Part shown: positions 2,555 through 64,000 of the stretch, one piece after another | Numbering within the stretch: the stretch's first letter is position 1 | Layout: each line of letters starts with the position of its first letter | DNA from: Deroplatys truncata | Lineage: Eukaryota > Arthropoda > Insecta > Mantodea > Mantidae | Direction of reading: 5' to 3' | Assembly (NCBI GenBank): GCA_030765065.1 | Contig: CM060975.1 | Span: 261,897,816-261,961,815 of the forward strand | DNA length: 64,000 bases | Made by a program: the position numbers and the translations under genes | The notes under the pieces: model-generated | The model's input: the letters and a program-made list of their open reading frames with translations, nothing else | Database searches by the model: none | What the model was told of the DNA's origin: nothing

Positions 2555-2690
2555 GAGATCTACATTTTTGTATAGCACGTTTTTGTCTTTCTATTAGCGT
2601 TATACCAGTTATACAAATTCCTTCCGAATGAAGAGTGTCTTGTGGGCTATTCCTAGAACATTCAAGATATATACTGTATTTGCCTTGTGA
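2555..2690 (-). repeat. Family R fragment
   Basis: Minus-strand match to the middle of family R. The recognisable landmarks are the GATCTACATTTTTGT string, the 'ACCAGTTAT(G/A)CAAA' segment and the 'ACATTCAAGATATATA' segment, in the order seen in the better copies at 52860-53010. Both ends are missing or decayed. Confidence 0.6.
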
Positions 2691-8120: not shown

Positions 8121-8323
8121 TTACTTTCTCTACTAGTTACCCATGTTAAGCAGAGGAAGGACTGCATTTCATAAAAAATTTGATATCGAGATTTCACGTA
8201 AGTACATGTTTTGAGAGTCCCTCAATCCAAAAGATAGCATTTTTATAAAAGGGTGAGAGACAGACACAGACAAGAATAACTGATAAACAAAAAGTCGATT
8301 AAACACAAAACTTTATATACCTA
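8121..8323 (+). repeat. Family R, 5' part (interrupted)
   Basis: Begins TTACTTTCTCTACTAG and follows the family through GATATCGAGATTTCAC, ACATGTTTTGAGAG and the AAAAGTCGATTAAACACAAA segment. It is cut at a TA dinucleotide at 8322-8323 by the Tc1/mariner-type element. The sequence after that element (10276 onward, TATAAGTTCGGCATTTTACA) could be its continuation, but that match is weak. Confidence 0.7.
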
Positions 8324-15872: not shown

Positions 15873-16137
15873 ATAATAACTTACTTTTCTTTTAACAGTT
15901 TACACCTCCGGTAAATGAATGTTGTTGTGAAGGAACAGTCATCAACATTTTCAGGTGAAATAAATATATCATAGCAATAACTTAGTTTTGTTTTGGCAAG
16001 TTATACTTCCAGCAAACTAATGTTGTTGTAAATGATCACAGTGATAACTTTTTCAGCCGTAATAATAACATAATAAAACAACTTATTTTTGTTTTAGCAT
16101 TTTACACTTCGTTTTTCTAAAACGCTGTTTTTGTCTC
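15873..16137. repeat. 101-bp imperfect tandem repeat, three units
   Basis: The string AACTTA, followed by a T-rich block and TTTACACTTC-like and AATGTTGTTGT-like segments, begins at 15878, 15979 and 16080. The spacing is exactly 101 bp each time. The third unit is incomplete. Identity between units is moderate, so the array is fairly old. No ORF runs through it. Confidence 0.75.
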
Positions 16138-17957
16138 ATTGCCGCATTTCCTGTGAAATATCGGTATTTAATTTCTGAGTGAAATAAAATACTTCTGTAA
16201 TTATATATATGTAGTAAAGAAATTAAAAACCCTCTCGATGATGTAGGATATCACGGACGCAGAGGTACAGTTGCTATGTGCATGCCTCTGTGGACACATG
16301 ACGAAATAAAATGGTATCGTACACGGATGAGACCTAGAAGACTAAGTTTCCAAAGCGACCCGCAAGATATCTGCTAACGGATCCATCGCGATATGACCGC
16401 GTATTTAAAGCGACGTAAAATAAATAGAAAAAATCTGAAGCCAAACACCAGGAACAAATAAGCATTTGTCGTTTGCTTTCAAAGTAATTACACTTGTATT
16501 CTACTTTTCATTAGATAAATCCCGATGAGTGATACTTATTAGTCTTTATGGAAAGTTTCTCTGCAAATATGTCCTTTTTTCCTATCTGTATTTAATGAAC
16601 TATGCTCTGGCAGTAGCAGTTTTCGCTGCAACCATCATTGTAATATTTGAAGAAAGCTTTCTCTTTCTTGTCTAAACTTTACATTTCTTTCGGCTGCATT
16701 TTGATTGTACTTGAAATCTAAATTTAGTATAATTAGGATTTAAAGATGTATATGTCTTATTTATCGGTTTGTTTTGTTCCTTACGTCTAGTCTTACTTCA
16801 ACACCAAATATAGCCGTTAATATTGCAGAATAATAAGTTGTTTGTTTAAAAATTGGCATCAGTCACCTACAAAGAAGAGCAAATTTCAGACTATACATTG
16901 TATAATATGTTGATTTATACTAAATTTATTAAAAACTTGGGCTTTCGTGGTATATTATCGATACGATAAACGTTAGCAGAAATATATACGGATAAAAGCT
17001 CTGCCTATAACTATGAAAATGTTTACAACGAGGGTTTATAATCTACTATCCCATACTCACAGATATGAAACATGGGGCCTAAAACAGGTGTAATATTTTC
17101 CATCAAGCTAAACTTATTAAAGTAGCATTTGGTGTGGCTAATGATAAATGCTAATGAGAATAATACTTTCAGTTGTGTGTAATTAATCTTTAGAGAGCAA
17201 ATAATCTTGAAAACCACAAATGGACCCTTATTCAAGAGATACCGGGAACTGAAAGGGAAGCCACCATTATCAGACAGGTTTTGCTACATACGGTCATTTT
17301 GTCGAAAAGCATGCTGTCCCATACTATACAGTGTTTACCTCTATGGTTGCCCACAGAGTTTCTATGCTACGTAAATTACACTTCGCCTTTGATGCGCGCA
17401 ATTACTCTCAGCACTCCACAACCACCATCGTTTCCTGCATTTTCTATCTATAAAATGCAATTAACATTGTGCGTTTTTGCAAAATAATGATAATAGCATC
17501 AATTCATAAAAATAAATAAATTTAAAAAATTTAAATGCCACAGTTATCCTGCTATACTAGTTACTCAGAACACCGTCACAAGCTATTTGAGCCACAACCA
17601 TATTACCGTGAAAAATAATGTATAGTAAGCTTTCTAAGGAAAGACAAAAGAAGAATAGTGAAGCAGAGGTGAAGTATGTGACTCCCGAGTGAACAGGATT
17701 ATATTAATGTAGTTAATATCATTTGTTAACATTGTACACCACCTCACTGCTACACCACCTCTTTAGCACATCACTATTTGCACGAGAATGATTTAATCTG
17801 CACCAGTTCCCCTTCGTCTTTCTAAAAGCTGCTTTCTTTAGTCTCTTCGTCTCTTTTTAGCACGGAGTTTTCTTCTTGGATAACCGTTGCTGCGGTAGAT
17901 GCTTACCTATCGGGCACAACCCTTCTGTAAGTTTTGTCCTAGAGTTACCAGTTTATA
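16138..17957. other. AT-rich stretch, no gene seen
   Basis: Short unrelated ORFs on both strands. No transposase, RT or RNA signature. Confidence 0.4.
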
Positions 17958-18256: not shown

Positions 18257-19188
18257 TTATACTAAGCACCTGCATTATGTGCACTTGAATTTAGTTTTAT
18301 CCGTAATATCAACCTCGTTAAGTTATAAGTTAAAGTGCCCTTCTAGTGAACACGAGAGGAACGACTGTCATTAAATTCTGCAAATTTAACGTAGAACGGT
18401 TAACAACGCAAGACCGCTAAAGAAAGATCTGTATCTTAATCTCATTAACTCAGAAGGAGGCGTGATAACTCGAACAGTTCTAGACAGATTAACCTTCTGT
18501 CAAAATAATACATCAACATTCATAATGGATGAAAATCAATCACCGGATTGGCGAATCTTGTTTGTTGCTTTGCCATATAATCCTTCATCAACCTGTTTAG
18601 CCTTAAGGACTGTATAACACAGCAAAAAGTTTGTCTTAAACCAGTTCGCTCAATCTTGGTATACACATCAATAGAAGGCTAGAAACTACTTGACGGGAAC
18701 GTGCGTTCATCTATGTGCCTGCTGATTGGTTAATTTTGAATACTATAATATGAGAATATTTAGAAGATAATTTCTTAGTATTTTTATAACAATTTTTCGT
18801 AGTACCTATAGATCCTGAAAAAATGATACGCAAACTTGTGGTTGTTTGTCCTTTTTTGGCAATTTTATAGGCAAAACTTCATGCCACTTTGGTTATTCCG
18901 CTGGCAAACACCAATCTATTTCTTTTAAGGGTATTCTTCTCAAAGGACTTCAAAATAATAGGACAAGTAAGAAGTAAAACTTTATTGCTTCAAATTTGGA
19001 GGATTTTATCACACATTACAATTTCACACATTTCTTAAACGTTACAGTACCACTGAAGAATTAGTTTTTCTTTCACCTTAGGTCATTTACCAAACATTTT
19101 TTGCTAGAAGTGTTCTGAATTTAAGTAATATGGAATTAGTTGGAATAATGATACGGAAAACGAACCACAACTGCATGTCGTAAATCAG
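18257..19188. other. Stretch without recognisable gene
   Basis: No ORF over 60 codons with family resemblance, no clear repeat terminus before the family R copy at 19189. Confidence 0.4.
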
Positions 19189-20030
19189 TTTTGTCTACTA
19201 TGTATAGTAAGTAGGGGAAGTATTGTATTTCACCCAAAATATCCATATTTACCCGGAAATACATGTTTTGAGGCCCCATGAATCCCTCTGGTCTGTCTGT
19301 GTGTCTGCGTGTGTGCCTTTGTCTCTGTGAACAGCATAACTTAAAACGAAAAGTCGGGTCAACCCCAAACTTGGTATTTAAGTTCAGTACCATCCAAAGA
19401 TGGGATACGAAGATTTTCAAGGAAATATCCCCACCCCAGACCACCCTTTTCATGGAGACGTTTTAGAAAATTTTTATTTTCTCAAAAATACTTCTAATGA
19501 TTTTTATTAAATTATCCCATGTTTAAGATATTTTCATGGCAAATCAAAATGTATATTTTGAATTTTCTTGGAATGTCCCCAAAAGTCCTCTTCATTATGA
19601 ATGACTTTTGCATAACTTGTAAACGCAAGAGATAGACAAACTTTTACTACACAAAAGAATGTAAATCTTGTTAAAACACACAATTTTTCATATGTTTTTG
19701 TCCAGTGAACCATTTTTATATATTCTTTATTATTTCTTACAATTTTCTAATACTTACTCAAGTGAGAATTCGTTATTCTTGACTTTTCCCCCTTTCCTTG
19801 GACATGCAAGAGAATGGAATGTTCCAAATAGCAACTCGCTCTTTAAAGCTTTATCTATTGCTTAAAGCCTACTTTTTTACCATATTCCCCTTGCAACTAC
19901 AAGAAAATTAGCAATAATATAATTTCTGCAAATGTTTATCTTGATTAACAAAGTGTATGGAGAATAAGAGTTTGTAAAAATGCTTTTTACAAGAGTAGAG
20001 AAAGTCATGTGGGTGTAATGCATCAGATTC
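19189..20030 (+). repeat. Family R, near full length
   Basis: Runs from a TTTGTCTACTATGTATAGTA variant of the left end to GTAGAGAAAGTCATGTG and CATCAGATT at the right. The fixed internal microsatellite position (about 19290-19335) holds an impure GT-rich tract. All landmarks are in order: CCAAACTTGGTATTTA, TTCAGTACC, TGGGATACGAAGATTTTCAA. ORFs on both strands inside it are incidental. Confidence 0.88.
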
Positions 20031-20259: not shown

Positions 20260-20352
20260 ACATGTGGGCACGTGGACGTTTTTCTAAAATCATATTTTAC
20301 ATTTAGTGAAATCTCGATATAGAATTTTTGGGTGGAATGCAGTACTTGGTAT
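20260..20352 (-). repeat. Family R fragment (left end region)
   Basis: Minus-strand fragment carrying AGTGAAATCTCGATAT and AGAATTTTTGGGTGGAATGC, which are the sequences just inside the family R left end in copies such as 53355-53390. Too short to set boundaries. Confidence 0.65.
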
Positions 20353-22691
20353 AGACAATTAGTAGAGACGTATTAGAAGAGTGTAGTAACACACGGGACA
20401 AAATGTTCGCAAATATGTGGCAGATAAAAAATCTTGCTGATAAAAAGAAATTGCTTTCAGATAATCATATATCAAATGCGCTTCTCAAATCTCTGGGAAT
20501 ATCGCTACGTCAGCCTATAAGGAACTTAATGGAAACCGAAAACTGCAGATGAGGCGATTGAATCCTAGAAATTGCTAAATCCAGGATGCATAAGGAGGCA
20601 AAGGATATCAAAATCGTTTTAAAATGCGAAGTAGGCAGAAGGAAAGGAACTGAGCGTAACAACGCAGAAAATACTCTGCAAAAATGTGGAGCGAGACGAA
20701 GAGACAAAAGAAAAGAATGTCACAAATGTAACATTTCATAACACTAGCAGTATAGCATAGCTCTGCGTCGTATTATTTCGGTATACTTTGTAAAACATTC
20801 TTGTACAATTTTCCTTATATATGCAGTTATTATAAGGAAAAACATTCTGGCCGGATTGCACGAATAACAAGAGTTTATTCGATTGGTCTTATAAACGCGT
20901 CTATAACCATACAATACAACGTCCACTAGAGCAGAAACAATGTCACATTCCCTAAATCAGAATACCTAGTATTTTTTTGTTTCCTAATGTTTCTACACTT
21001 ATCTAACAGTGCTAGTTTTCAGAAAGGCCTTAACAGTCTCTGTGACTAGCTTGAAACATAAGAGCGATGTTATACTCGGTGTGAAACGAAGCGGGGCTCA
21101 GAAATAGCCTTTGATTCGTGAAAAAAAGAGGCGGCTACCCCAATGTATTACTCGGCCACGATATGCGTGCGCTTGGAGGAGGGCAACACTGTTTTTGTTG
21201 ACAATGTGTAATGTCATCAAGACTAGGGACAAACCGATAGGGGAATGTACATTTGCACAATGTAAACAGTAGCTTACTTGCAGGCCTCAGCCCCACTAGT
21301 AAATGCAACCCGGAATGAGGATGCTTTGTTTATCTAACTGTTCCTCAGATGCCCCGCCCACTTGTGCCGTAACGGTTTAGTTCTTCCCACAAACGCACTC
21401 ATATCGTGGCTGACTAAAAACATTTTAGCGACTCGAGCTTACGGAGGAAAGCTGTTTGAGGAATGCACAACTTCCATTGTATTTGTGAATTATTTTTTGT
21501 CAGGTAGACAAGGAATTCTAAGAATGTTAATTCGTGTATTTTCAGTTAAAATAATTCATTTCAACCAACCTCCTTTGTGTACGGGTAGTGTGAATTACCT
21601 GGATAAGGCTTTTTTATGGGTTTACCCTTACCCTGAAAAAATGAATGTCAGGTAACTGCAAGCTCTGCGGATCTCTCTCGAGCTGCGTTTCTCGTCCATA
21701 TGCATTTAGATGCAACAATAATACTAAAAATATTATATAATTGATAATAGTACGGTTTTATGATTATCATTATTATTATTGCATAATGACACTAATATCG
21801 ACTTAGCAGTCGAAAAGCACCGTTAACTAAATGGTCTTATTTTTGTCAGTCTTTTTATCATAATTATTATCTTAACGGTACTCAACTGGCGAAAGAGTAG
21901 ACAGCTCATTGGCAGTATTACGCTCGACTGCTATCTTTTGGAATTGCGTAAGCAACTTGCCATTCAAACAGCTGGAATTATGCAAAACGGGAGTTACAAA
22001 GGTATTGCTTGTAGAGGGGGGAAAATAAACATTCCAATACTAACTTAAATTTGTCCTTATATGGACTTTGTTCTGAACCAAGCACACATTCTCAATGGGT
22101 TATAAAGCATTCCTATAGCTCGTAGATCAAAAAACCAACCAGGAAATTGCTAGACGTTCCCTAATTCACATTGCTGTCTTTTCCAGACTTCACGAATATG
22201 CTTATACACTGCTGGAAATCTAACAAATATCTCTCTTAGGAGGTTTTATTGGAATTAACCTATGATACATCACACTAACGTGCAGGTAATTACGTTATTC
22301 ATTACGATGGGAGCTAAAGCTCTACCTCCGTGGTGTAGAGAGGCGTGTCAACCTTCCATCTAGTTTAGAGGGGGTATAGATAGGCTTTATTTCGAGTATT
22401 TACCTTTGTCTGCATTAGGCACCCAGCAGGCAGCGGAGCCCTGTCTCATTTGAGCATTATTTCACAGTCTCTGCAATCTGGATTATTGAGAGGGGGAAAA
22501 GGGATATAAAGACCTTTGGAAAAAAACAGCTTATTAAACAGCTGTTTTTTCCCCAAATTGCAGACTACCATTTGATTCTCTTTTATGGCAGAGTACCTCA
22601 ATTCCTTTAAAGACTTATCGCGGTATCTGTTCGTGTTATCTTTTTTGCTGAGCACCTGTTATTGTTTTACTATTTTGAACTTTGGGTTCTT
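20353..22691. other. Stretch without recognisable gene
   Basis: Includes a 97-codon plus-strand ORF (21362-21655) with no domain I recognise and a string resembling a tRNA A-box (CTCCGTGGTGTAG at 22326) without a B-box. A hairpin with 12-bp arms GGAAAAAACAGC/GCTGTTTTTTCC lies at 22518-22552 (one extra A in the left arm). None is strong enough to call a gene. Confidence 0.35.
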
Positions 22692-24870: not shown

Positions 24871-25014
24871 AATAACATTTTGAATACATCCGGATCGCTG
24901 TGGTTTGCTTTCTTTTCAGCTGTATGGTAGAGTGCGCTACGATTTCAAGATACCAAACATAGACGTCATTCTTACTCTATCGACATGACAGAAATCGCGA
25001 ATTGCATTCAGATG

Positions 25015-25395
25015 GTTTTCTCTACTCATTCTTGTATAAATATTCTTACAAAAACTTATTCTTCTGTCCACTTCTAGTTAATCGAGATAAACATTCATTA
25101 CACATTTCATTGTAAGTGTAAAAGAAAGCCTACAGCAGGCTAAAGCGATAGTCAGATTTTTAAAAGGCTGATCGTATTATGATGGCTTTGAAATTCCATT
25201 TTGTTTGCACGAGAAAAAATGAATAGTGACTTACCACTCTTCTAAAAGACATTAAAATACTCAAACCAACAACAAAGAATATCTCGGAAATGGTAAATGA
25301 CACAAACATTTTTATTTGACATAGATTCTATACTTTAACAGCTCTACATTTTTGTAGCGTTTACCAGTTATATAAAAGTCATGCAAGACGTTGAA
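25015..25395 (-). repeat. Family R, decayed 3' two-fifths
   Basis: Minus-strand copy beginning TCTCTACTCATTCTTGT and including TTAATCGAGATAAACATT, AAAGCGATAGTCA, ATATCTCGGAAATGGT and GTTTACCAGTTAT, in family order. Rather divergent. It ends near the SINE at 25450. Confidence 0.7.
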
Positions 25396-25449
25396 ATGGG
25401 AAACAGACGCATTAAGTGTGATTGTATTATTATAACACCTTGAAATATC

Positions 25450-26302: not shown

Positions 26303-26720
26303 ATTTTTACATTCTCTACTACGTAGTTACAGCAAGTAGATAAAGTATCGTATTCTATCTAAACATTCGATGAGGATATTTCGTGGGAAATGTGTTTTGA
26401 GACCACCGAAACAAACAAAAAAGCAATTTTAGAAAAAGGTTCGTTTGTACGTATGCATGTGGACAGCATCAAAAACGAGAGGTCTGTTAAATACGAAAAT
26501 TAGTATGGTTGCGACGAAGATTCTGAAGAAAATCGTCCCATCCTAAACTATCCCTTACATTGAAAAGTTTTCGTTAGATTTTATTTTCTTAACATGGCGC
26601 TAACGAATTTGATTAAAGTATCATATATATTTAAGCTATTTTCATAATAAAATAAAAAGTATATTTTAAATTTTCTAAAAACAGCATGTAAACTCCTCTT
26701 TATTCTGAATGATGTTTGTA
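26303..26720 (+). repeat. Family R, left part of a split copy
   Basis: Starts TTTTTACATTCTCTACTACG and proceeds through the family landmarks to TCTTTATTCTGAATGATGTTTG at 26719. There a mariner element splits it at TA. The copy resumes after the SINE at 28458. Confidence 0.88.
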
Positions 26721-27871
26721 CCAGGGCGGATAGAAAAGTAACGCACAATAACTTTTTTTTTACAATAACTTTTAGTAGTTAAAACAACAAAATATCACAA
26801 ATGAACTTACACCTTTTACCTACTTTTCGACATAGTCGCCAAGTTTCGCAACTCACTTTTCCCATCGTGATACCAGTTTCAATATGCCCTGTTCGTAGAA
26901 TGTTTCTTTGGAGTATAGCCATCTGTGGACTGCTGATTTAACTTCCACATCTGTCGCAAAGCGTTGGACGGCCAGGAATTTCTTCATGGGATCAAACAGA
27001 TGAGAGTCCGATGGTGCAAGTTCCGGACTGTATGGTGGATGCTGTAGCACCCCCCCAACCAAATTTGGTGATTTTCTGACGAACAGCAGCAGCATCATGT
27101 GGGCAAGATTGTCATGAAGAATTTTGACATATTATCATTCATGTTGTGGCGTTTGTCACGAAGGGCACGACGCAACTTCACCAAAGTTTTCATTTAGGCT
27201 GCAGCATTCACAATGGTCGCGTGTTCAGCAAAGTCCACCAATATAACACCATGCATATCCCAGAACACCGTCACAAGCACTTTTTCTCAGCAGATTGAGT
27301 CACCTTGAATTTTTTCTTCACTGGGGAACCAGCATGTTTCCACTCCATACTTGCCTGCTTGGTTTCGGGCGTGTAGTGGTATGCCCACGACTCATCACCA
27401 GTGACGATTCCTTTCAGGAACAATATCGTACATGTTGAGCTGTTGCGATAAGGTTCGCAGTTGCCGCCTCAAGCCTCTGACATTCTGCGGGGTTGCAGTT
27501 GTTGCCGGCCTCCCGGAGCGTGGCGAATCACTAAGGTTCACACGGCCCTCTAGGAAAAATTTACACCACCTGGAGACATTGCTACGGTCCATACAATCAT
27601 CTCCATACACACCATGCATTTCCCTGTGAATATCATTCGGTTTATGCCCTTTGGCCCACAAATATTGAACCACATCTCTCTGCTCTTAACACGTGGACGA
27701 CAGTAACATGCGCGCCAACGTTGTTACGTAGTTCACGCTTCTCTTGCTAGAGCTTCACAAGAAACAAAAATACCCTCTGTAGTGAAAACTTCAAACTATA
27801 TCTGTGTGAAATTGCCACATTCTAGCTCCAATACCAAGGTAGAAAAAAAATTACTTTTCGACCCACCCTAG
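26721..27871 (-). mobile_element. mariner-type DNA transposon, defective
   Basis: The terminal inverted repeats are CCAGGGCGGATAGAAAAGTA at 26721 and, on the minus strand from 27871, CTAGGGTGGGTCGAAAAGTA. Both lie next to TA (26719-26720 and 27872-27873). The length of 1151 bp is close to the size of a full mariner. A broken minus-strand transposase fills most of it. It is inserted at a TA inside a family R copy. Confidence 0.93.
26800..27690 (-). pseudogene. mariner transposase, broken
   Basis: Minus-strand remnants of a mariner/SETMAR-type transposase. 27673-27395 encodes the N-terminal region with VVQYLWAKGHKPNDIHREM, SRWCKFFLEGR and DSPRSGRP (helix-turn-helix and linker). The middle, with FWDMHGVILVDF and a TIVNAAA-like segment, is spread over frames between about 27370 and 27130. 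27098-26853 contains HPPYSPELAPSD, the region of the third catalytic aspartate, followed by a family-typical tail. Frameshifts and stops make it inactive. Confidence 0.9.
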
Positions 27872-27886
27872 TATAATTGGTAAACC

Positions 27887-28457
27887 AGTGAAGTGGCGCC
27901 GCGGTAATGTGTGCAACTCGCATTCAAGAGGTCCAGGGTTCAATTACTGGTGACCGCCCTCTCTGGCCATGTTTTTTTCACAGTTTTTTCTTCGTCGACA
28001 AGGCGAATACTGGATTGGTGTTATCTACCACGGATCTCCTTTCTCCCTCATTTCATCTTCCTCTTTCATGCTACATGTTGACCTCGGTGTTATGTGTTAG
28101 TCGTCGGCGGACTGATGGCGGGGATGCTTGCGCTTTGGAACTCCTCCTCGGCCTGTCAGATGGCACCCATTTGAGCCTCCACATCTGGGTAGAGCATTCC
28201 CAGGTCTTCGCTGGAGCGGAGCCCGTGAGCCTCCCTTCCATGGCTTGGAAGGTTCGCCGCAGAGCGCTCACCAGCCGGGTGGTTAAGCTTCTAAAGATTA
28301 GGTAACTCTGCGCGTCTGTCGCCTGCGTCGGTCGGTCCTGCGGCCCATAAGTCTCCTGGCGGTTCCTTCATCTCATCTGTTCCTCCCGGGAGTGCATGCA
28401 CAAAATATCCCTGTGTGGGTCGAGGTGCTGGGTGTCCCGTCTGTCCACTAATCCTAA
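27887..28457 (+). mobile_element. tRNA-derived SINE with target duplication
   Basis: The head begins with an A-box-like GTGGCGCCGCGGTAATG at about 27893 and a B-box GGGTTCAATTAC at 27937. A GC-rich body of about 500 bp follows. A 13-bp direct repeat with one mismatch, TAATTGGTAAACC (27874-27886) and TAATTGGTAAATC (28458-28470), flanks it. It was inserted into family R sequence directly beside the mariner. The 132-codon ORF inside (27907-28305) has no protein signature and reflects GC content. Confidence 0.85.
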
Positions 28458-28833
28458 TAATTGGTAAATCGCTAGAGTTAGCAAAATGTTACTACACACA
28501 AATTGCAGATAACGTTAAAACACACCATTTATGTCAAATGTTTTATCGCGTTAATCGTTTTCGAGATATTTGTTATTGGTTTGAATTTTTATTTCTTTTT
28601 CGTGTTTATGCAACGAGAACAGAATTTCGAAGCCATCACACTGCTACCGGCTTAGAAAATATTTGACTATCGCTTTAGCTTGCTGTATCTTTCTTATGCC
28701 AACAACGAAATGCGTAAATTAGTAATGAAGGCTTATCTGTATTAACAAGGAGTGGATAGAAGAATATGATTTTGAAAGAATAGTTCGTAGAAGCATGATT
28801 AGGAAAAGTCATGGGAGCAGAACACATCAGATG
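28458..28833 (+). repeat. Family R, right part of a split copy
   Basis: Resumes the copy broken at 26720 with TAATTGGTAAATCGCTAGAG, then AACGTTAAAACACACCATTT and CGTTTTCGAGATATTTGTTA, and ends with GTCATGGGAGCAGAACACAT and CAGAT. With the left part this makes a copy of about 0.8 kb. Confidence 0.88.
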
Positions 28834-29960: not shown

Positions 29961-31024
29961 TTTAACGTTTATATTTTACGTTTTACAATGTTGAAGCTTT
30001 ATTTCGTGTTTTGTTAGAATATAAAGTATAGATTTTGTTGCCTAGTAATTACGAACTACAGCATCACTGATTATTATAGTACACAAAATATTTTAGTAAC
30101 CTTTGTGTAAGAAAGTTGTTTTATTTGCTTTGTAATTATGGTATAAGTAACTTTGTTTGTGGGGCATGGTAAATAATTGCACAAATGAGAGAAATGCAAC
30201 CACTTGAAATCAGTGAACCCATTTTTTTTAATTAACAACTGAGAAGATTGTTTTTCTCGATCGTCGCACACTCTGTTTTTTTAAAGAGGTTAACTTGGAG
30301 CCGGAATTCACGTCTTCAACAGTTTCACCTCTATTTCGTTGTATATATTAAGTGTTCTTGTATTATGTGGAAACGGTAGTAACCCTTATGTTATTAAATA
30401 ACTACTGGACCAAAGTGAAGGTAAAAAAGAATTTCCGGACCTGGAAGACTATCGAGGGAGGTTAAAGAAGTTAAACGTTCCGCCGTAGTTTCCATCCTTT
30501 TGCGTGAATATGAGAGGATTTAGCATCCGTAATTAGGAATAGCCGGAGCCGTACAAAGTTAAAATTGTAAGCGGTAAAAGGGAATATTTTACTAACAACG
30601 ATCTTTTATATCGTTGTACAATAACTTTTATAAAGAACGGGGATTGAGGAAAAAATTAATTCGTCATTAGAGTTTAAAAAAGTTACCCGTGTACTTTTTC
30701 ATAAAATACAACAAAAGCAACATACCGTTTTACACAACACCGATAATTTCGAAAATGGTTAATGCTACTAATGAGCATAAACTGCACATTTTACATCCTT
30801 CACCTGCTATTTGGAGCCAACATTCGTATTTTAAATAAAATCGTTAGAGCCATTTCGGAGAAAATAAAAAGAACTGCCCAGGATTTTTTGGGATTAGGGA
30901 TAGATGTACAAACTTCGCCCGTTATCCTTTAAATGTTCTACTTAAATAAGGTTTGGTGTTAAAGAGATAAGTTACGTTATTGGCGCGCAAAAACATGCTT
31001 ATTTTTAACCTTTCTACCGTTCAT
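29961..31024. other. AT-rich stretch, no gene seen
   Basis: Short ORFs only. No element boundary identified. Confidence 0.4.
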
Positions 31025-33327: not shown

Positions 33328-34012
33328 TTTTACTTTCTCTACTACGTATAGTGAGTAAGGGAATTATTGCATTTCACCCAAAAATTAGATATCAAGATTT
33401 CACCATAATACAGTTTTGAGGTGCCCTGAATCCAAATAAAGCATTTCTAGAAACATATCAGTGTGTGTGTGTGTGTGTGTCTCACAACCGAAACTCAAAA
33501 CCGAAAAGTCGGATAAATACCAAACTTGGTATTTGAGTTTAGTATCTTCCAAGAATGCAACACGAAGATTTTAGAGAAAATTTCCTCACATCAGACTACC
33601 CTTTACATGAAACATTTGTCTAAAATTTTGATTTTCTCAGAAATGGTTCTAACGATTTTGATTAAAACATCCTAAGTTTAAGATATGTTTATGTAATATG
33701 AAATGCATATCTCGAGTTTTCTGGGAATTTCCTCAAAAGTTCTCTTCATTCTCAATGATTTTTGCATAACTGATAAACCGTAAGAAAGGGACAAAATGTT
33801 ACTATACAAAAATGTAAATTTCGTTAAAACACACAATTGATGTCATACTTTTTTGACGAGTGAACCGTTTCCAAAATATTCCTTGTTATTTTCTGTTAGT
33901 CTCTGCAAATGTTTATCTCGATTAACACGAAGTAGATGGAGAATAAGCGTTTGTAAAAATATTTTGTGCAAGAGTAGAGAAAGTCATGTGAGTGCAGCAC
34001 ATCAGATTTTTT
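33328..34012 (+). repeat. Family R with internal deletion
   Basis: The left end TTTACTTTCTCTACTACG and the right end AAGTCATGTGAGTGCAGCAC then ATCAGAT are both present. The (GT)n tract is at 33462-33480. About 150-200 bp before the 3' end are missing at about 33898, where TCTGTTAGT joins CTCTGCAAATGTTTATCTCG. Confidence 0.9.
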
Positions 34013-34575: not shown

Positions 34576-35636
34576 TTTACTTTCTCTAACACCTACTAAC
34601 AGATGTAGAGGGACTATTGTATTAGATTAAAAAATTCCATAACTAGATTTCACCGGAAATACTTGTTTTGAGATCCCGAATCCAAGAAAAGTAGTTTCAG
34701 AAAAACCTCTGTGCCTGTAAACTTGGATATAAGTTCAGAACCTAAGAATGCAATAGGAATTTTTACAAAAATATTCCCTCCCTAAACTACTCTTTGTATG
34801 GCAAAGTTTTCCAGCATAACGACTGACTCTTGTTATTTTTCGAATAGTGTTTAACACTCATTCTTACTTCCTACGCACCACAGGTGGCGACATTGACGAT
34901 GCTTAAAATGAAATAAAATGATAATTCGAAAAGGGAATTTGGGAAAGAAACGTTCCAGATCTAAGCTTGTGGTACTTTCCAGACATTTGTCACTTATGAT
35001 GACTGAAAAACCGGGAAAGCAACTGTTAGAGGAACGATCTGGCAGGAGTTGAAATGCAGACCTCCCGTTCACCATTCTGTGCTTTAACTACTTCGACTAC
35101 CAGTGTCAATAAAGAATCTTAACGATTTAGGTTAAAATACTATATTAAAGCACTATACTATATTTAATCTCTATGCATGATCAATAAAATGTATACCTTG
35201 AATTTTCTGTGAACAGCCCTTGAAGTACTCCATTCGAAATTATTTTTCTATAGCTATTTATAACTCCTAAACCACAGGAAATGGAACCTACTACGCGAAA
35301 CATTTAGATCTTATTGAAAAACCCAACTTAAGAGACTTCAGCGATATCTGTTGCTGTGCTGTGAACTTTCCAATTGTTTATCATAACTTTGTGAAGCCTT
35401 TAGTTTCTCGTGATGTCATGCGAAGAGTTAAGAATTTCCAAATCCTTAAGTACCGATACCCGCAAGCATCTGACTTGTCACTTCAAACTCTGTATCCCTC
35501 TTTTGCCCTCAAAAACGTGTAATGCGACTACTTCTGCAAATGTTCATCTCGAGTAAAACTATGTATATCACTAGAAGGGATATAAAAACAAGACATGGTT
35601 AGTAGGGATGGTCGTATGAATGTAACACACATGCGG
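34576..35636 (+). repeat. Family R, old copy with SINE inserted
   Basis: Starts TTTACTTTCTCTAACACC and follows the family, in decayed form, to GGTCGTATGAATGTAACACA near 35620. A SINE-like insert of about 260 bp (34845-35105) interrupts it. The segment between the two family landmarks 'GACTGACTCTTG' and 'AACGATTTAGGTTAAAATA' is where the family normally reads continuously. Confidence 0.75.
34845..35105 (-). mobile_element. Probable tRNA-derived SINE
   Basis: The minus-strand head at about 35105-35035 has an A-box-like TGGTAGTCGAAGTAGTTAAAG and a B-box-like TTTCAACTCC. A body of about 190 bp follows. It lies inside a family R copy. No clear target duplication was seen, so the call is moderate. 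Confidence 0.55.
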
Positions 35637-42901: not shown

Positions 42902-44842
42902 GTATATGTTCCGTTACTCATTCCAGTTATACCAGTATTGTAAAGATTTTGAAAAAAATTGAACATTGGTCCACATTTTCTTTAATGTATGTCAAGTGGA
43001 ACAGTATTGTAACAACTAATGATACATCCTATTTCCCTAGTTTCTACCACATTTCATCGGAGAATAGGGTACCTTATGCTTATCGAAATCTCCTCTATGG
43101 TTCACCAGTTTTCAATTGATCCACCTCTTTGGTTGACCCAGTTTTCTAGTAAAGGGCGCTGGTCGTCTTCTACTGCAATACAATGCTATTTCTGGAGGAA
43201 ACGTTGTTACATAACGTTGAAGAAATCTCGGATAATTTAAATGAATAAAGGATTGAACAATAGAATTCGCATGAATCTTTTTCTTCTGTGGTATGTTTTA
43301 TGAGCTTAGCATGCACTATTTTAAATTAATTCCTTAGAGATATTGAAAGATGTTCTGATAAAATTAATGAACGCAATTTTTTGAAGCACAATTACCGCTG
43401 AAATAAATCCCTAGTTGATATGTTCTACATTTTATGATAACGGAGTTTAGATCTTAATTTCGTCATTTTGTATATTTCTCTCGCATTTAGAATTCTAAAA
43501 CTAAGTTAAGCTTTTTATAATAACATCGTTAATACACACTTAAATATAATTGTATAGCCTAATATTCAATGAATATAAATTCGATTACAATTTCTTACTA
43601 AGCAGGGGAGAGTGAATCGAATAGGGATTTACGAAAATGACTACATTTGATTAAAAAATCAATGTAACGATATTTTCATGTTATGCAAATTGGGCTAACT
43701 ATTATACTTCAGCACTCGAAATATCATACTCCAATTGCTAATTCCAAAGTCTGACCTTTCCAGAGCTAGGAAATTACACTGGCTTTGTCCAAAAATGATT
43801 AGCCAAAAGTGCACGAATTCAAAATTGTTATGCCTGAATTTAATTTATCTTTTAGTAGGTCTGATTGCCGGGGGTTTGTAATCCTTGCTTTGTTTTAATT
43901 GTTTAAAGGTGAAAGGAAGGACTCTTGGGTAAAAACGATGGGAAATATATATTTACGTAAATTTAATAACAGGTTTAATATTTGAAGGGCTCGAGTCCAA
44001 GTAGGAATATTGTTACAGAAGTTAATAAAGAATAGCAAGGTAAATCTGCATGTGTGGAACTAAATAAGTTGAACAATGAGGGAAAATCAAAGCGTTTACC
44101 AACCGTGCTACTGAAATATATAATAGCATTTTAGCTCTTTTAATTTCAATTGTGTCTAAATAAAGCAACAAGTAGTATTCTGGACGTTTTACCCGCTTTA
44201 AACTTTAATTTTTATTCCTTTACTTTACAAATATTAATGTCCAGCCTCTCCTAAAGGTATCTGCTTCATAATGAAGAAAACTTTACAATAAAGTTTTCCT
44301 TTTTAGTTTTTATGGCGGGTAAGGAAAAGAGGCAATGACTGAACATAAGGAAGGTACTGTTCTTTTTGGGGGACAATGAGACCTCCAAGTGATTGCATTG
44401 CGGTGTTCGTTTGTTATATTAAACAATTTACTGAAATTACATAAAAAACTATTACGAAAATTAAACACCACCACTAAAACTAATGTAGTCCCCCGTATTG
44501 GAGCAACAAATTCGCAGCGGCGTCGGAATAACAGCATACCTTCTACTCTGCAACGGACTCGAGCTTACTCTTAAAGTGTCACTTTCCCGTGAATCTGCAA
44601 GACCAAGCGAGCTATTCCAAAAGTCTGCGAATTTTGAAATGATTCATAACGATTTTTCCCAGAATTCTGCGAGAGATAGAATAAAAATATTCATAAACTT
44701 TTCGATAAATTAATGGGTGGTACCCGATATTTAACCTCTGCTTCAATTTGCAGAATAAAAGGTTTATAACACTAATGCAGAATAACCTATTCCCCTCGAG
44801 GGCTCAAGTGCAAGCTCTTTTATGACTTAAAAAGTTTCGGAT
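42902..44842. other. Stretch without recognisable gene
   Basis: Short ORFs (43019-43240, 44310-44713 region, several frames) have no domain I recognise. I did not find repeat boundaries. Confidence 0.35.
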
Positions 44843-45655
44843 ATTACATTCTCTACCCACTATCATTTATTTTTGTATTATACACACCATTCCTACAGCC
44901 TTATTTTTCTATTCCCTTCATGTTAATCGAGATAATACTTTACAGATTTTGTTATGGGTACCAAAGATTGTAGGAAACCAAAGCGATACACAAATGTTTA
45001 AAGAGTGGGTCGCGCTTGGCTGGCCTCCAAATTCCAATTCAACTTCAAACGCAGCGCGAGAATCAACCAAATGTGACAGCATCTCAAAAATAGCGAATTG
45101 TTATTGAAAAACTCAAACCAATAATGGGTACATCGGAAATGGCTAATATTTTAAATAAATTGTGTGTGTTAAGAAGAGTGATCGGTAAGTTTTTGACTTT
45201 CTTACAGTTTGCTGGTTATACAAAATTATAAAAAATTCCTTCCAATTAAAGGACCTTACAGGATGTTTCCATAAGTTCAAAATATACATTTTATTTGCCA
45301 TGGCAAATTGAAAATTGTTGAGCCACTTCCGAGAAAATCGGAAATTTCGAGAAATGTTGCATGTAAAGTGTAGTTTGGTGTGAGAGATTTTCTTTAATAC
45401 TTTCATGCCATATCTTGAATATTTCGTAGATGTTGAACTTAAATCCAGTTTTGGTATTTATGTGACGTTTCGTGTTTGATTTATGATGTTCACTCATAAC
45501 AGACCGAGACAGGCGACCCGGACCGTTTTCTAAAAATGCTTTTTTGGGATTCAGGGGTCCGCAAAACCTTATTTCCATTAAACTCTCGGCATGGAATTTT
45601 TGGGTAAGATGCAATACTTCCTCTACTTACTAGGTAAGTGGCAGTGAAAGTAAAA
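44843..45655 (-). repeat. Family R, near full length
   Basis: Minus-strand copy from TACATTCTCTACCCACTATC on the left (3' end, decayed) through GTTAATCGAGATAATACTTT, TTTGCCATGGCAAATTG and AGTTTTGGTATTTATGTGAC to CTTCCTCTACTTACTAGGTA and GTGAAAGTAAAAAC on the right (5' end). ORFs on its minus strand are incidental. Confidence 0.8.
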
Positions 45656-45984: not shown

Positions 45985-46003
45985 ATGTAACCTGGGGCTC
46001 GAG

Positions 46004-47888: not shown

Positions 47889-48755
47889 AACTTTCTCTAC
47901 TACGTATGGTAAGTCGGGGAGGTATTGCATTCCATCCAAAAATTGGATACCGAGATTTCTCAAGAAATGCATGTTTTGGGCATCCTGAATCAAAAAAAAA
48001 GTCTTTTTAGAAAAAGGTCTGTGTGTGTTTCTCTGTGGATGTGTGTCTATGTGTGTGTGAACAACATAACTTAAAAACGAAAAGTCGGATAAATACTAAA
48101 CTTGGTATTTATGTTCAGTATCTCTCAAAAATACAACACGAAGATTTTAAAGAAAATCCCCTCACTCTAGACTACCCTTTACATGTAACATTATTCAAAC
48201 TTTTTTTGATTTTCTCCAAAATGGTGGTAACAATTTTGATTAAAATATCATATGTTTAAGATATTATCTTGACAAATAAAATATGTATCTTGAATTTTTT
48301 GGGAATGTCCCCAAAATTACTCTTCTTTCTGAATGGGTTTTCCATAACTGGTTTAATCGTAAGAAATAGATAACATTTTTCTACACTTAAAATGTATATC
48401 CCGTTAAAGCACACAATTTATGTCATATACATATATTTTTTGTCAACTGAACCATATCTGAGATATTCCTTGTTATTTGTTTCAATTTACCAAGACTTAT
48501 ACCTTTTTCTAAATGGGAATTCGTTATTTTCTTTTTTATATCCTGGACACGTAAAGAGAATGGAATACTCTGCTCCATATAGCAACTAGCTCTTAAAAGA
48601 TTTGACTCTCGAAGCATACCACATTCCCCTTGCATCTACAAGAAAATTAGCAATTAGATTAATATTTCGATTAACATGAAGTAGATGGAGAATAGGCGTT
48701 TGTAAAAATAGTTTGAAAAGAGTAGAGAAAGTCATGCGAGTGTAACACATCAGAT
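47889..48755 (+). repeat. Family R, near full length
   Basis: ACTTTCTCTACTACGTATGG at the left and AGTAGAGAAAGTCATGCGAG then TGTAACACATCAGATT at the right. A GT-rich tract lies at about 48018-48060, in the fixed position. Every internal landmark is present, making this one of the best copies for a consensus. Confidence 0.92.
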
Positions 48756-50418: not shown

Positions 50419-50851
50419 GTTTCGATCAAGCCGGGTTTCGATTAAGTGCTGTTTGGTTAATTATGATTTTGCTGTATTTTCATCCAAATGTTACACCCAT
50501 TATTAGCAACGAAAAACAACGAAATATTTTCCATGCGAAAAGTTTTGGGGGAAGAGATTTACTTTAAAATATTTGCTCGGTAAGTTTAAATAGTGCGTAA
50601 GAGAAACAGTAAATTTGGTATTTATTAGACTTTCCGATACACACATATACGCGCTTGCGGGGATTTTATATGTGTAAACTGTAGAATAATTCTAAACGTT
50701 GTGTACATCTAGCCAGTGTAGTATTGTAATTTTATTGCATTATTTGTCCTCCACTTGTGGTTAAAATTCTCTTTTGTAAATTCTTTAGTTCTAGTTTAGT
50801 TAGTTTCAAAATTTTTATTATAAGTTGAGATAACATTTATGGTTTGTTTGT
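50419..50851. other. AT-rich stretch, no gene seen
   Basis: Lies between an L2 repeat and the leader units of the L1 LTR. No ORF with a recognisable domain. Confidence 0.4.
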
Positions 50852-52291: not shown

Positions 52292-53236
52292 AAAAATCTG
52301 ATGTGTTACACTCACATGACTTTCTCTACTCTTGTACAATCTATTTTTTACAAACGCCTATTCTCCATATGCTTTATGTTAATCGAGATATCGAGATGTC
52401 AATCTTATTGCTAATTTTCTTGTAGATGCAAGGGGAATATGGTAGCTTTTAAGCGATGGTCAAATATTTTAACGCTGGGTGCTATGCGGCGTATTCCATT
52501 CTCTTTGCAAGTCCAGGACAAAAAAATCTGATGTGTTACACTCACATGACTTTCTCTACTCTTGTTCAATCTAATTTTACAAACGCCTATTCTCCATATG
52601 CTTCATGTTAATCGAGATATAGAGATGTCAATCTTATTGGTAATTTTCTTGTAGATGCAAAGGAAATATGGTAGCTTTTAAGCGATAGTCATATATTTTA
52701 ACGCTGGTTGCTATGTGGCGTATTCCATTCTCTTTGCATGTCCAGGGCATAAAAAATGAATAACGAATTTGAGAAAAAGTGTAAGTATTGGAGAATTTAA
52801 GGAAATAACAAGCAATATCTCGAAAACGGTTCACTCAACAAAAGAAATGTATATGACATAAGTTGTGTATTTTAATGCGATCTACATTTTTTGTGTAGTG
52901 AAATTTTGTCTATCTCTTATGGTTTACCAGTTATGCAAAAGTCGTTCACAATGAAGAATACTTTTGGAGACATTCCCAGAAAATTCGAGATATACATTTC
53001 ATTTCTCATGACATTATCTTAAACATATGATATTTTCATTAAAATCGTTAGAGCCATTTTTGAGAAAATTAAAATTTTCGAGAAATCTTCCATGTAAAGG
53101 GTAGTCTGGGGTGGGAATATTTTCTTGAAAACCTTCGTGTCGCATCTCTGGAAGATACTGAACCTAAATACCAAGTTTGGTGCTTATCCGACTGTTCGTT
53201 TTTGAGTTATGCTGTTCACAGACACACAGACACACA

Positions 53237-53287
<51 letters not shown>

Positions 53288-54071
53288 ACACACGGACATG
53301 TTTCCAAAAATGCATTTTTTGGATTCAGGAGGTCTCAAAACATGTATTTCCAGTGAAATCTCGGTATCGAATTTTTGGGTGGAATGCAATACTTCCCCTA
53401 CTTACTATACGTAGTAGAGAAAGTAAAAATGAATAACGAATTTGAGAAAAAGTATAAGTATTGGAAAATTTAAGGAAATAACAAGCAATATCTCGAAAAC
53501 GGTTCACTCAACAAAAGAAATGTATATGATATAAGTTGTGTATTTTAACGCGATCTACATTTTTTGTGTAGTAAAATTTTGTCTATCTCTTATGGTTTAT
53601 GGTTATGCAAAAGTCGTTCACAATGAAGAATACTTTTGGAGACATTCCCAGAAAATTCGAGATATACGTTTCATTTCTCATGACATTATCTTAAACATAT
53701 GATATTTTCATCAAAATCGTTGGAGCCATTTTCGAGAAAATAAAAATTTTCGAAAAATCTTCCATGTAAAGGGTAGTCTGGGGTGGGGGGATTTTCTTGA
53801 AAACCTTCGTGTCGCATCTCTGGAAGATACTGAACCTAAATACCAAGTTTGGTGCTTATCCGACTGTTCGTTTTTGAGTTATGCTGTTCACAGACACACA
53901 GACACACAGACACACACACACACACACAGACACACACACGGACATGTTTCCAAAAATGCATTTTTTGGATTCAGGAGGTCTCAAAATATGTATTTCCAGT
54001 GAAATCTCGGTATCGAATTTTTGGGTGGAATACAATACTTCCCCTACTTACTATACGTAGTAGAGAAAGTA
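52292..54071 (-). repeat. Family R cluster: 3' part duplicated and 5' part duplicated (A-A-B-B)
   Basis: In plus-strand order there are two 230-bp units of the family's 3' part (52292-52521 and 52522-52751). Two units of its remaining 5' part follow (52752-53424 and 53425-54071). The A units each start AAAAATCTGATGTGTTACAC, and each B unit ends CTTACTATACGTAGTAGAGA then AAGT. The B copies differ mainly in the length of a (CA)n tract (53216-53293 against 53889-53939). High similarity points to recent tandem duplication. Confidence 0.92.
53216..53293. repeat. (CA)n microsatellite inside family R
   Basis: Long CA tract at the family's fixed microsatellite site. It creates a His-Thr repeat ORF that is not a gene. 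Confidence 0.95.
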
Positions 54072-60984: not shown

Positions 60985-61120
60985 TACTTTCTCTACTACG
61001 TATAGTAAATAGGGGAAGTATTGTATTCCACCCAAAAATTCGATACCAAGATTTGATCGGAAATATATATTTAGAGACCCTCTGAATCCAAAAAGAGGAT
61101 TTTGGGAAGCATGTCCGTGT

Positions 61121-61153
<33 letters not shown>

Positions 61154-61948
61154 AACAGCATAACTCAGAAACGAACAGTCGGATAAACACCAAACTTGGT
61201 ATTTAGGTTCAGTATCTTCCAGAGATGCGACACAAAGGTTTTCAAGAAAATACCCCCACCACAGACTACCCTTTACATGGAATATTTTTGTAAAATTTTA
61301 ATTTTCTCAAAAATGGCTTTAAAGATTTTGATTGAAATATCATATGTTTAAGATACTTTTATGACAAAAGTATATCTTGAGTTTTCTGGGAAAGTCTCCA
61401 AAAGTATTCTTCATTGCGAAAGATTTTTGCATAACTGGTAAACCATAAGAGATAGACAAAATTTTACTACGCAAAAAATGTAGGTCGCGTTAAAATACAC
61501 AATTTATGTCATATACATTTTTTGTTGTTGAGTGAGCCATTTTCGAGATATTGCTTGTTATTACCTTAAATTTTTCAATACTTATTTTCTCAAATGGGAA
61601 TTCATTATTCATTTTTTTGTCTTGGATATACAACGAGTATTAATCTGTGGCAAAGGGAATGGTGCTGCACCTAGTAACCAGCTATTAAGATATATGTCTA
61701 TGCTTAAAGGCTACTGTATTTCTATATTGCCCTTGCAAATACAAAACGGGGAACATGGTATGCCTTAAGCGATAGTCAAATATTTTTAGAACTGGTCGCT
61801 ATGTGTAAAATGTAATTCTCTTCGCATGTCAAAAGATCGTTTCTACAAATGTCTATCTCGATTAATATGAAATAGATGGAGAATAAGAGTTTGTAAAAAT
61901 AGTTTGTACAAGAGTAGAGAAAGTCATGGGAGTGTAACACATCAGATT
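60985..61948 (+). repeat. Family R, full-length copy
   Basis: TACTTTCTCTACTACGTATA at the left; AAGAGTAGAGAAAGTCATGG, then TGTAACACATCAGATT at the right. (GT)n at about 61117-61152. At about 960 bp it is the longest uninterrupted copy and contains the segment deleted from the 33328 copy. Confidence 0.92.
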
Positions 61949-62255: not shown

Positions 62256-63641
62256 TTTGTTTTGTTATGTTATATTACTTTTTATTTTACCTTAATCGCA
62301 TACAAGAAAAACATTTGAACACGTATGGATTTTATACTATATTTCTATTCCAAACTGCATAAGTGCTAACAAAATTGATTTAAATAAAACATGCAAGTAT
62401 TTATTGCTAAATACTGAAAACATTTACAAACACTATGAGGTATTAGAAAAACTCAAACTGTGAAACTGTGCATTACTCACTTTTCGCATTTTAAGTGAGT
62501 TATTATAAAAATGTTGATTTTTCGGCTCAAGGGAGAGGTCCATATTCTCAACTTCTTAACTTTTTAGAGTCTGTTCAGGGTTTCTTGTCCAAATTGCAAA
62601 AGTTCTTTCTGTAGGTTTATGAAAATCTTTGAAACTGAAGTTTTTTTACAACATTGTAACAAAAACTGTTAATAAAACAGGCGACTTTGTGGCTCTTGAA
62701 TCAATTTGACAGATGAATTTTTTTTTCCAGGACTACCAATAATTTGACATAACTGTAACTGTAGCCCTGTCATGAATCTAGGAACCTGAATCCATAATAA
62801 CACAAATTTAGTAGAAATTGGCCCTTCGGCCTCTTTGCATATTTTGCTGTTTATTTACCAAGTATAGCGTTAATAAGCAGGCGTGATACGGGGATATTCC
62901 ATATACCATGCCTTCGTTTTATGCCAAGGCCACAACCAACCGCCTTATGTATCGAGACGGCAGTGACCTGGCTATTACGCCTGTGCGCAGAGGCGTCGCA
63001 GGACGTGTCAAAGGTACATTTATCAGCTTTGAGCTGTCTCAGTCGTTGCTTTGTCTTCGTGCTGTGAAGGGTTTCAACCATATCTGTATTGTGTGTGAAT
63101 TCCTTAGGAATGTTCTTCTCTTATTAGTCTACCAACAAATTCACACTTGAAAGGTATTTTTACTTAAGTTACATACGTGAAAACCGAATCATGTAGATAG
63201 GTGTGTGGACAATTTCAATAGCAATTACCTTATTGTCCAGTTCCGAGTAGAGACATAGGGAGGTATAAGGTGAATAAATTTAGAACGGGGTCGTCAAACG
63301 CTAAAAATAAAATTTATAGAAACAATCCCCATATACAAACATACGGACAATGTAAAAGCAGAAATTATTAAGAAGTTACGCTGGAGAATGGTAAATTCAT
63401 CCGACGATGTCAAGAATATTTCGCGCGGATGGACACCACTTTCAACAACACTTACAATAAGGTTAGTATTTATTACATGTGTTATTAACACTCTGAGTAA
63501 GTAACGCGGGAGTTACCGAACGGAAAACCCCGCAATGTACTAGACTGTGTGTGGAGCACGCATTCGTGCGATCTGCGGCCTTACCATAAAACGAAGAGAC
63601 TGTATATGTAGAAACATATGAGGTGTTACTTTCACATTAAT
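62256..63641. other. Stretch without recognised gene
   Basis: Overlapping ORFs on both strands at 62851-63150 sit in a locally less AT-rich segment but show no domain. Nothing else called. Confidence 0.35.
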
Positions 63642-64000
63642 TTCTCTAATCACTCCTTTGCTTGCTATTACTACAAAAGCTTGCTCCTCTACCTACTTCT
63701 TATTAACCTAGATAAAGTTGAATTGCACATTTACCCTTCGTTGCAGGAATAAGTAGGATATAGTAGGCTAAAATGATAATCAAATTTTTAAAAAGCGGTT
63801 CGCTGTGTAATGGCTTTGAAATGGGACATGTCCACGAGAAAAAAACGAAGAGCGCAATCAATTGCAATTGTTAATCCCACAAAAACGTTTACTTGGCATG
63901 AATTGTACGCTTTAACAACATGCACTTGTTTGTGTAGCAAGAGCTTTTCTAGTTCCTGTTTACAAATTTTACAAAATTCATGGGGGATGATGAGAACTTT
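63642..64000 (-). repeat. Family R, truncated by window end
   Basis: Minus-strand copy starting TTTCTCTAATCACTCCTTTG and including TTATTAACCTAGATAAAGTT, GCTAAAATGATAATCAAATT and a degenerate TTTGTGTAGCAAGAGC segment. It continues beyond the window. Confidence 0.65.

Follow-up and report, generated by a model that had tools for sequence, protein, structure and literature searches.

A HINE family, its coding Helentron partner and a recurrent self-landing site in the genome of the mantis Deroplatys truncata

The window analyzed here is a stretch of 64,000 nucleotides from the mantis Deroplatys truncata (GenBank assembly GCA_030765065.1, contig CM060975.1, positions 261,897,816 to 261,961,815 of the forward strand). 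A sequence-only reading had described in it an abundant, ORF-less repeat family and named one copy, and the named element was confirmed with an extent of 47890 to 48755. From left to right, the element is composed of a T pentamer, ACTTTCTCTACT, 10 bases, AGTAGGGGAAGT, a microsatellite, an AT-rich body, AGTAGAGAAAGT, a stem-loop, CAGA, and a T-run. Its parts are as follows.

47890..48755, plus strand: the HINE copy named in the sequence-only reading, full length (profile match)
47890..47901, plus strand: 5' subterminal inverted repeat, ACTTTCTCTACT (pattern count)
47912..47923, plus strand: 5' internal inverted repeat (the "IR" of DINE-1), consensus AGTAGGGGAAGT, pairing with the 5' subterminal repeat (profile, fold)
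48018..48059, plus strand: GT/GTCT-type microsatellite at a fixed internal site, profile ~130-165 (profile, repeat scan)
48721..48732, plus strand: 3' subterminal inverted repeat, AGTAGAGAAAGT (pattern count)
48734..48750, plus strand: 3' stem-loop ATGCG/CACAT (consensus ATGTG/CACAT), followed by the CAGAT end (profile)

Most of the anatomy that had been read by eye was borne out: 12-bp subterminal inverted repeats (ACTTTCTCTACT and AGTAGAGAAAGT, the same at both ends), a microsatellite at one fixed internal place, a conserved CACATCAGAT end, and T-rich flanks. The 3' stem-loop held up in part. A stem of 5 bp (ATGTG/CACAT) with a 7-base loop is present in the consensus, but its fold is weak (z, -0.85) and it is imperfect in some copies, including the named one, which reads ATGCG. 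The consensus 5' hairpin, in which AGTAGGGGAAGT pairs with the left repeat, folds at -4.9 kcal/mol (z, -2.4). Across 36 distinct 5' ends, 77% of cells were paired in the 5' stem (positions 1-12 with 23-34), versus 48-66% in slid controls; for the 3' stem, the value was 87% across 35 distinct 3' ends, versus 6-59%. Compensatory changes were nearly absent from both stems, with 4 (5') and 0 (3') cells against 8-14 and 0-2 in slid controls; the stems are thus not proven by covariation.

Among six copies with recognizable ends, the last 38 bp were 94% identical and the body 81%, and none of 536 body windows reached the value of the 3' end. The first 38 bp were 90% identical, a level reached by 1 of 536 body windows, while the 12-bp 5' repeat taken alone was not exceptional (54 of 552 windows reach its identity). 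Ends that are kept while bodies drift would be expected of sequences recognized by a transposase. The 3' subterminal repeat lies ~23 nt from the 3' end, outside the range of 38-60 bp given for mite HINEs, which is a range reported for mite families and, in the passages concerned, not stated as a requirement (PMC4067079).

The description of the family as ORF-less also stood, in that no conserved frame runs through the body of the six copies. Their longest frames (56-113 aa) vary in place and reading frame, and shuffled sequences match these lengths in 10 to 169 of 200 trials. Several copies have antisense frames of 99-113 aa across the CA microsatellite (53073-53411, 53703-53999, 60974-61297, and 19139-19462), which annotation of such genomes might mistake for proteins. 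We considered coding potential for these frames and rejected it, as their lengths are within the reach of shuffles and neither place nor frame is constant.

Within the 64-kb window, ACTTTCTCTACT occurs 36 times at up to 2 mismatches, compared with 8.0 (SD, 2.8) in shuffles, and none of 100 shuffles reached that number. A family profile of 862 positions, built from the six copies, retrieved 24 matches at a threshold of E<1e-5, which merged into 17 copies or fragments making up 14.3% of the window. The best false matches scored 2.2e-5 in the reversed window and 0.28 in ten Markov windows. Thus, the repeated family that had been described as some fourteen copies of 0.8-0.95 kb is real, but its full-length number was overstated: six members are full length with recognizable ends, three are near full length (worn or interrupted), and eight are fragments. 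The six are those at 19186-20028, 33332-34007, 47890-48755, 52526-53424, and 60986-61947, together with the interrupted host copy A (54070..52296). Pairwise identity among the six end-bearing copies is 77-96%. Besides the copy listed above, the family is represented by the following features, assigned by profile match except where an alignment is indicated.

2509..2796, minus strand: internal fragment
8123..8327, plus strand: 5' fragment
16122..16224, minus strand: 5' fragment
19186..20028, plus strand: full-length copy, 5' end worn
20268..20367, minus strand: 5' fragment
24997..25410, minus strand: 3' fragment
26309..26721, plus strand: 5' half of a copy split by the insert at 26722-28456
28457..28832, plus strand: 3' half of the copy interrupted by the insert at 26722-28456
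30801..31001, minus strand: internal fragment
33332..34007, plus strand: internally deleted copy, both ends present
34579..34836, plus strand: 5' part of a worn, interrupted copy
35097..35632, plus strand: 3' part, probably of the copy starting at 34579
44838..45651, minus strand: worn copy, near full length
50457..50654, minus strand: internal fragment, the weakest counted (E, 1.4e-6)
52296..52525, minus strand: 3' part of host copy A (profile 634-862)
52526..53424, minus strand: full-length copy B, within copy A at the internal T-run of A
53425..54070, minus strand: 5' part of host copy A (profile 1-634)
60986..61947, plus strand: full-length copy, collinear with the Helentron ends, with an inverted internal duplication at 61731-61833 (alignment)
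63616..64000, minus strand: fragment ending at the window edge

A tandem duplication was considered as the origin of the arrangement at 52292-54071 and rejected, one copy lying inside the internal T-run of another. The 1.7-kb insert at 26722-28456, which splits a HINE copy, has frames that look mariner-like by eye (e.g., PPYSPELAPSD). A Mariner-type transposase fragment is present at 58910-59380 (Pfam Transposase_1, 4.2e-13), and a 46-bp tandem repeat of 2.7 copies is found at 51420-51541. The G+C-rich frame at 45957-47123, with zinc-knuckle-like cysteine motifs and an A-rich stretch at 47753-47788, looks by eye like the gag end of a non-LTR retrotransposon; two of its frames gave no convincing Pfam family.

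The source genome comprises 4.29 Gb in 818 contigs. Contigs C1 to C16 are very large (134 to 339 Mb, plus one of 707 Mb), which suggests a chromosome-scale assembly. To gauge abundance, we scanned 30 stretches (49,332 unmasked bases) sampled at round-number coordinates rather than at random. The HINE profile covered 19.1% of these bases (bootstrap range, 10.7-28.3%), with matches in 14 of the 30 stretches; the first 20 stretches alone gave 15.6% (7-25%), with 80 bases matched in the reversed control. These values suggest that the family fills roughly a tenth to a quarter of the 4.29-Gb genome. The 30 stretches hold 11 5' ends and 8 3' ends; in the reversed stretches, the profile gave 0. Scaled to 4.29 Gb, the 11 5' ends correspond to a rough figure of ~0.96 million (Poisson range, near 0.5-1.7 million).

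An element that codes for a RepHel and shares the ends of the family, which the sequence-only reading had named as the partner to look for, is present in the source genome. Within the window itself, a regular-expression scan for RepHel motifs returned only two loose PH.H matches with stops beside them. A search of the source genome with the Helitron_like_N family gave at least 152 matches (150 of 291 candidates were scored), and the same search matched none of 14 control genomes. Two kinds of RepHel were looked at: one with a GLPHAH motif (L031), often with stops, and another in long open frames. Among the matches listed, at least 18 fall within frames of at least 2,000 aa.

One Helentron copy was read whole (C5:31074907-31085293, minus strand; 10,387 bp), and it holds one frame of 2,372 aa. 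At this locus (C5:31079366; L061 and L062), a host HINE (1-635) precedes the element, which starts with ACTTTCTCTACTACG and matches the HINE profile to 747. The Rep-helicase frame comes next, and at the far end stand the final 37 positions of the HINE, after which the host HINE resumes (635-862). The RepHel copies begin on their 5' sides at ACTTTCTCTACTACG, with Ts before it. All six copies checked on the 3' side (C5, C4, C13, C10, C9, and C8) terminate in GTGTAGAGAAAGTTATGTGAATGTAACACATCAGAT, which is almost identical to the HINE 3' end; their last 398 bp are 99.0-100% identical without gaps in all 15 pairs. Downstream of this end lies the 3' part of a host HINE in C5, C13, C10, and C8 and unrelated sequence in C4 and C9. 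Copies in the window align collinearly with the Helentron: that at 60986-61947 is 86% identical over positions 1-893 and 91% over the last 34 bp (10354-10387), and that at 52526-53424 is 91% identical over 1-695 and 94% over the last 34 bp. The inverted internal duplication in the copy at 60986 resembles one at ~805-906 of the Helentron.

In the one Helentron read, no counterpart was found for HINE profile positions ~748-826, and the 3' similarity stops after ~36 bp. By the rules of Thomas et al., the HINE and this Helentron are, as judged from the alignments, one family, while the subfamily rule of 80% over 60 bp does not hold with that copy. Because profile positions ~748-826 are unaccounted for, a closer coding partner may exist.

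Pfam searches of the partner frame found PF04843 at the N terminus, followed by PF20209, PF14214 (1.4e-28), and PF05970 (9.5e-27). The HUH motif of its Rep is VEFQMRGSPHEH, of the Helentron type GSPHEH; the partner thus combines a Rep having S between the G and P of this motif with a PIF1 helicase. An S before PH is described as marking Helentrons and an L as marking Helitrons (PMC4067079). The other Rep positions named there as diagnostic of Helentrons, among them the second triplet, are not clearly matched (YQR before the motif). In the C9 copy, the helicase end continues in one frame into an AP-type endonuclease with GDFN and SDH motifs, and the same endonuclease is open in the C10 stretch; PF14529 scored 27.4, 28.3, and 31.3 bits in the C9 and C10 copies at a cutoff of 27.4. 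In the C5 copy, the frame breaks inside the endonuclease domain.

A comparison of the endonuclease with PDB chains (phmmer) gave one match at an E value of 0.37, and a single-sequence AlphaFold model was uninformative (mean pLDDT, 35). PF14529 is an endonuclease family whose description mentions reverse transcriptases; this family aside, no DDE transposase or reverse transcriptase was among the Pfam matches in the scanned parts of the partner frame. No RPA frame was recognized in the 10,387-bp copy, which besides RepHel holds three unassigned plus-strand frames of 100-140 aa. Before the Rep, residues ~300-740 of the C5 protein form an array of near-identical SERKRNKEYMEQAREDEEYKE-type repeats, preceded by the PF04843 region. 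Partner frames differ in length among copies (up to 2543 aa), perhaps through the repeat number of this charged array.

The 2372-aa Rep-helicase frame of the partner lies between two ends that nearly match those of the family, with 0.7-0.9 kb of 5' sequence in common; the family is therefore almost certainly a HINE family, i.e., noncoding internal-deletion derivatives of an endonuclease-bearing Helentron in the same genome. Its members are deletion derivatives of a Helentron with the same termini, and their anatomy fits the published DINE-1/HINE plan. The earlier suggestion of a non-autonomous Helentron group is thereby supported.

The target sites bear on this assignment. Using only ends that start with ACT or hold CAGA, we found T before ACTTTC at positions -1 to -5 in 43, 42, 37, 44, and 41 of 44 distinct 5' flanks and T after CAGA at +1 to +5 in 45, 42, 43, 43, and 45 of 45 3' flanks; insertion thus occurs at T-rich sites. 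Six of the seven exceptions at -3 are A, and position -6 is mixed. Of the empty relatives of filled sites, two belong to an unrelated repeat: one lies next to L007/L022, the other at window positions 29799-29913. Filled sites have ~10-12 Ts, with one T left with the element, against ~7-9 in the empty relatives, and the two differ at the junction mainly in T number. Both ends are intact in 21 copies; of the 6 non-T positions in their flank pentamers, 1 was common to both sides (shuffles, mean 0.05; 54 of 1,000 reach 1), which speaks against a regular 5-bp duplication, albeit in a small sample. The sequence-only reading had found no target duplication; in these small samples, no consistent non-T duplication was seen, but a T-only one would be indistinguishable from Ts owned by the element and may exist. 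Earlier authors on DINE-1 and HINEs describe the same T ambiguity (PMC4067079 and PMC2374699).

One rival is a MITE, here a non-autonomous cut-and-paste element that depends on a DDE transposase and duplicates a short T-only target. In its favor, five Ts start both flanks, filled sites have ~3-5 Ts more than their empty relatives, and the single shared non-T position exceeds the shuffle mean of 0.05; inverted repeats and a lack of coding capacity would also suit such an element. Yet the other 5 of 6 non-T positions are unshared, on the right side the inverted repeat is subterminal and followed by a stem-loop, and nearly the same ends bracket a Rep-helicase-endonuclease element whose scanned parts have no DDE domain among their Pfam matches. 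We consider a MITE very improbable. A derivative of a canonical Helitron (5'-TC, CTRR-3', insertion between A and T) is barely credible. RepHel genes with the GLPHAH motif (L031) do reside in the same genome, many of them with stops in the domain, and HINE 1-342 adjoins one canonical-type RepHel fragment in L038. The ends here, however, read TTTTT-ACTTTC...CAGA-TTTTT within T-runs and not TC...CTRR, the partner with matching ends has GSPH, and the endonuclease copies have the same 3' end. In L038 (1154-1950), the Rep fragment that HINE 1-342 abuts, perhaps through capture, deletion, or insertion, is antisense, truncated, and of the other RepHel kind, and L038 was accordingly rejected as a coding partner.

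Having assigned the family to the HINEs, we examined how its copies lie relative to each other. New 5' ends directly following a piece of the same family were collected in a list of 31 junctions, restricted to same-strand neighbors and hence carrying no information on orientation. In 19 of these, the junction falls at profile positions 633-635, corresponding to 14 distinct places once L014, L015, and the junction shared by four Helentrons are removed. The others fall at 862 (n = 7), 852-859 (n = 3, two of which are one place), 312 (n = 1), and 723 (n = 1). No T-run of the consensus is longer than that at 634; the second longest, at 538-545, has no junction in the list, and T-run length alone may not decide the landing site.

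The genome scan for copies scored 40 of 12,456 candidates, ranked by likeness to the copy at 47890. Nested copies are overrepresented among the loci examined, as L009 to L017 were chosen for neighboring side matches and L059 to L062 and L083 to L096 for RepHel. Among the 11 loci picked without a neighbor criterion (L018 to L028), one (L025) is nested at 634 and three (L018, L025, and L027) have any self-junction, and none of 20 sampled stretches (L063 to L082) appears in the junction list. At many of the 633-635 junctions, the host copy is split and its 3' part resumes after the insert (the window, L004, L012, and L025). In L016, an antisense copy carries another copy at its A-run, and this second copy is oriented such that the Ts fall on its own strand. 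The picture is one in which strand-specific insertion into T-runs fixes orientation and gives head-to-tail and nested arrays.

Nested elements also appear to have traveled. In C4, C13, C10, and C9, HINE 1-634 is joined to a second 5' end by an identical junction, once in each. The outer unit of this composite is 98.1-99.4% identical among the four (gap columns excluded), and copy B of the window is 96.1% identical to it. The outer flanks differ: one is the 3' end of a HINE, another is a HINE 634 site, and the remaining two are unrelated sequences. Because the junction is shared while the outer flanks differ, a Helentron nested in a HINE has probably traveled as one piece. In C4 and C9, the composite goes no further than the inner 3' end; in C10 and C13, a host 3' part follows. 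A further nested HINE composite occurs twice ~25 kb apart (L013 and L014; C2, 47.899 Mb and 47.925 Mb), probably through segmental duplication.

Circles and tandem arrays have been reported for Helitrons (PMC5876387), and the arrays could have arisen mainly by multimeric rolling-circle transposition or unequal exchange instead of repeated self-insertion. Head-to-tail units are what circle intermediates would be expected to yield, 7 of the 31 listed self-junctions join 862 directly to 1, and the composite found at four places shows that arrays can be copied as units. Against this as the main route stand the many 633-635 junctions that split a host copy which resumes after the insert, the mark of insertion. 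We regard multimers or exchange as a rather unlikely principal source, and self-insertion and multimer insertion may both act.

For the HINE reading, a mechanism can be drawn by analogy with established Helitron and Helentron biology. The partner Rep would nick the plus strand at the 5' end of the element; displacement of that strand by the helicase would continue to the stem-loop downstream of the right subterminal repeat, and the displaced strand would be joined to a T-run, perhaps one cut by the endonuclease. With T-runs both at the borders of the element and within it (profile ~634), a new copy would frequently insert into an existing one with matching orientation, producing nested and head-to-tail arrays. 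We tentatively extend this to the genome as a whole, in a proposal that we hold to be possible yet somewhat more apt to fail than to stand: one Helentron/HINE lineage may have become a main genome builder by carrying its own landing site (the ~634 T-run and the border Ts, as favored targets), with copies piling into copies one way, composites moving from their outer ends, and satellite-like arrays as a by-product.

Divergence among copies gives some indication of age. Compared with a consensus built from the six window copies, 26 distinct full copies show 76-92% identity; the most similar HINE pairs at different places reach 97%. Because HINE copies are diverged whereas Helentron 3' ends are 99-100% alike, we infer that the HINEs span a long history and that the Helentron partner moved recently.

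The family can be set beside several known systems. The DINE-1 plan comprises a partial inverted repeat of the 5' subterminal repeat, a GTCY-rich microsatellite, and a 3' hairpin (PMC2374699 and PMC4067079). Drosophila DINE-1/INE-1, as described by Yang and Barbash (2008; PMC2374699), has the same plan but different 12-bp repeats (ATACCCGTTACTC in D. melanogaster versus ACTTTCTCTACT here). The mantis family differs from that description also in the T pentamers at both flanks, and its estimated number is far larger than the 5,424 copies given there for D. yakuba. The HINE/Helentron pairs of Metaseiulus, Culex, and Drosophila (Thomas et al., 2014; PMC4067079) are likewise deletion derivatives of Rep/PIF1/endonuclease elements with the same ends and, as portrayed there, share with the present pair the GSPH Rep motif and T-rich targets; no target-site modification was found for them, and here no consistent non-T duplication was seen. 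Compared with that account, no RPA frame was recognized here (in the copy read), the 3' subterminal repeat is nearer the 3' end, and self-nesting occurs at one internal T-run. The noncanonical FoHeli Helitrons of fungi (PMC5148889) form self-insertion composites with two 5' termini, as in four Helentron copies here, but composite cases are fewer and T-run targeting does not figure in the passages describing them.

Comparable rolling-circle shares are on record for other very large insect genomes: Helitrons are given as 16.7-21.9% of morabine grasshopper assemblies (PMC7754599) and 7-20% of gomphocerine grasshopper repeatomes (PMC7486953). Those figures, as presented, sum Helitron families obtained with HelitronScanner, repeat libraries, or read clusters, whereas ours concerns one HINE family with defined ends and partner.

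Within the paper collection searched, no description of the family was found: the exact ends matched only papers that, by their titles, deal with subjects other than transposons, and among the papers listed for Helentron with Orthoptera, the word Helentron occurs once, in a cricket satellite paper. The Helitrons of this genome could nevertheless figure under other names in earlier counts. The end and core patterns gave no matches in either the viral contig or the other-genome contig collection. HINEs, Helentron partners, self-insertion, and the high Helitron content of large insect genomes are already published. We class the present case as a new HINE family together with its Helentron; its genome share and recurrent self-landing site make it notable. 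A dominant repeat is here tied to a coding partner, with both ends defined. Whether Helentrons drive or follow expansion in large insect genomes is a question left open in the gomphocerine study (PMC7486953), and the sampled genome share makes this mantis a strong case for testing it. The recurrent self-landing site, in turn, suggests a specific way, open to testing, in which a transposon could give rise to tandem arrays.
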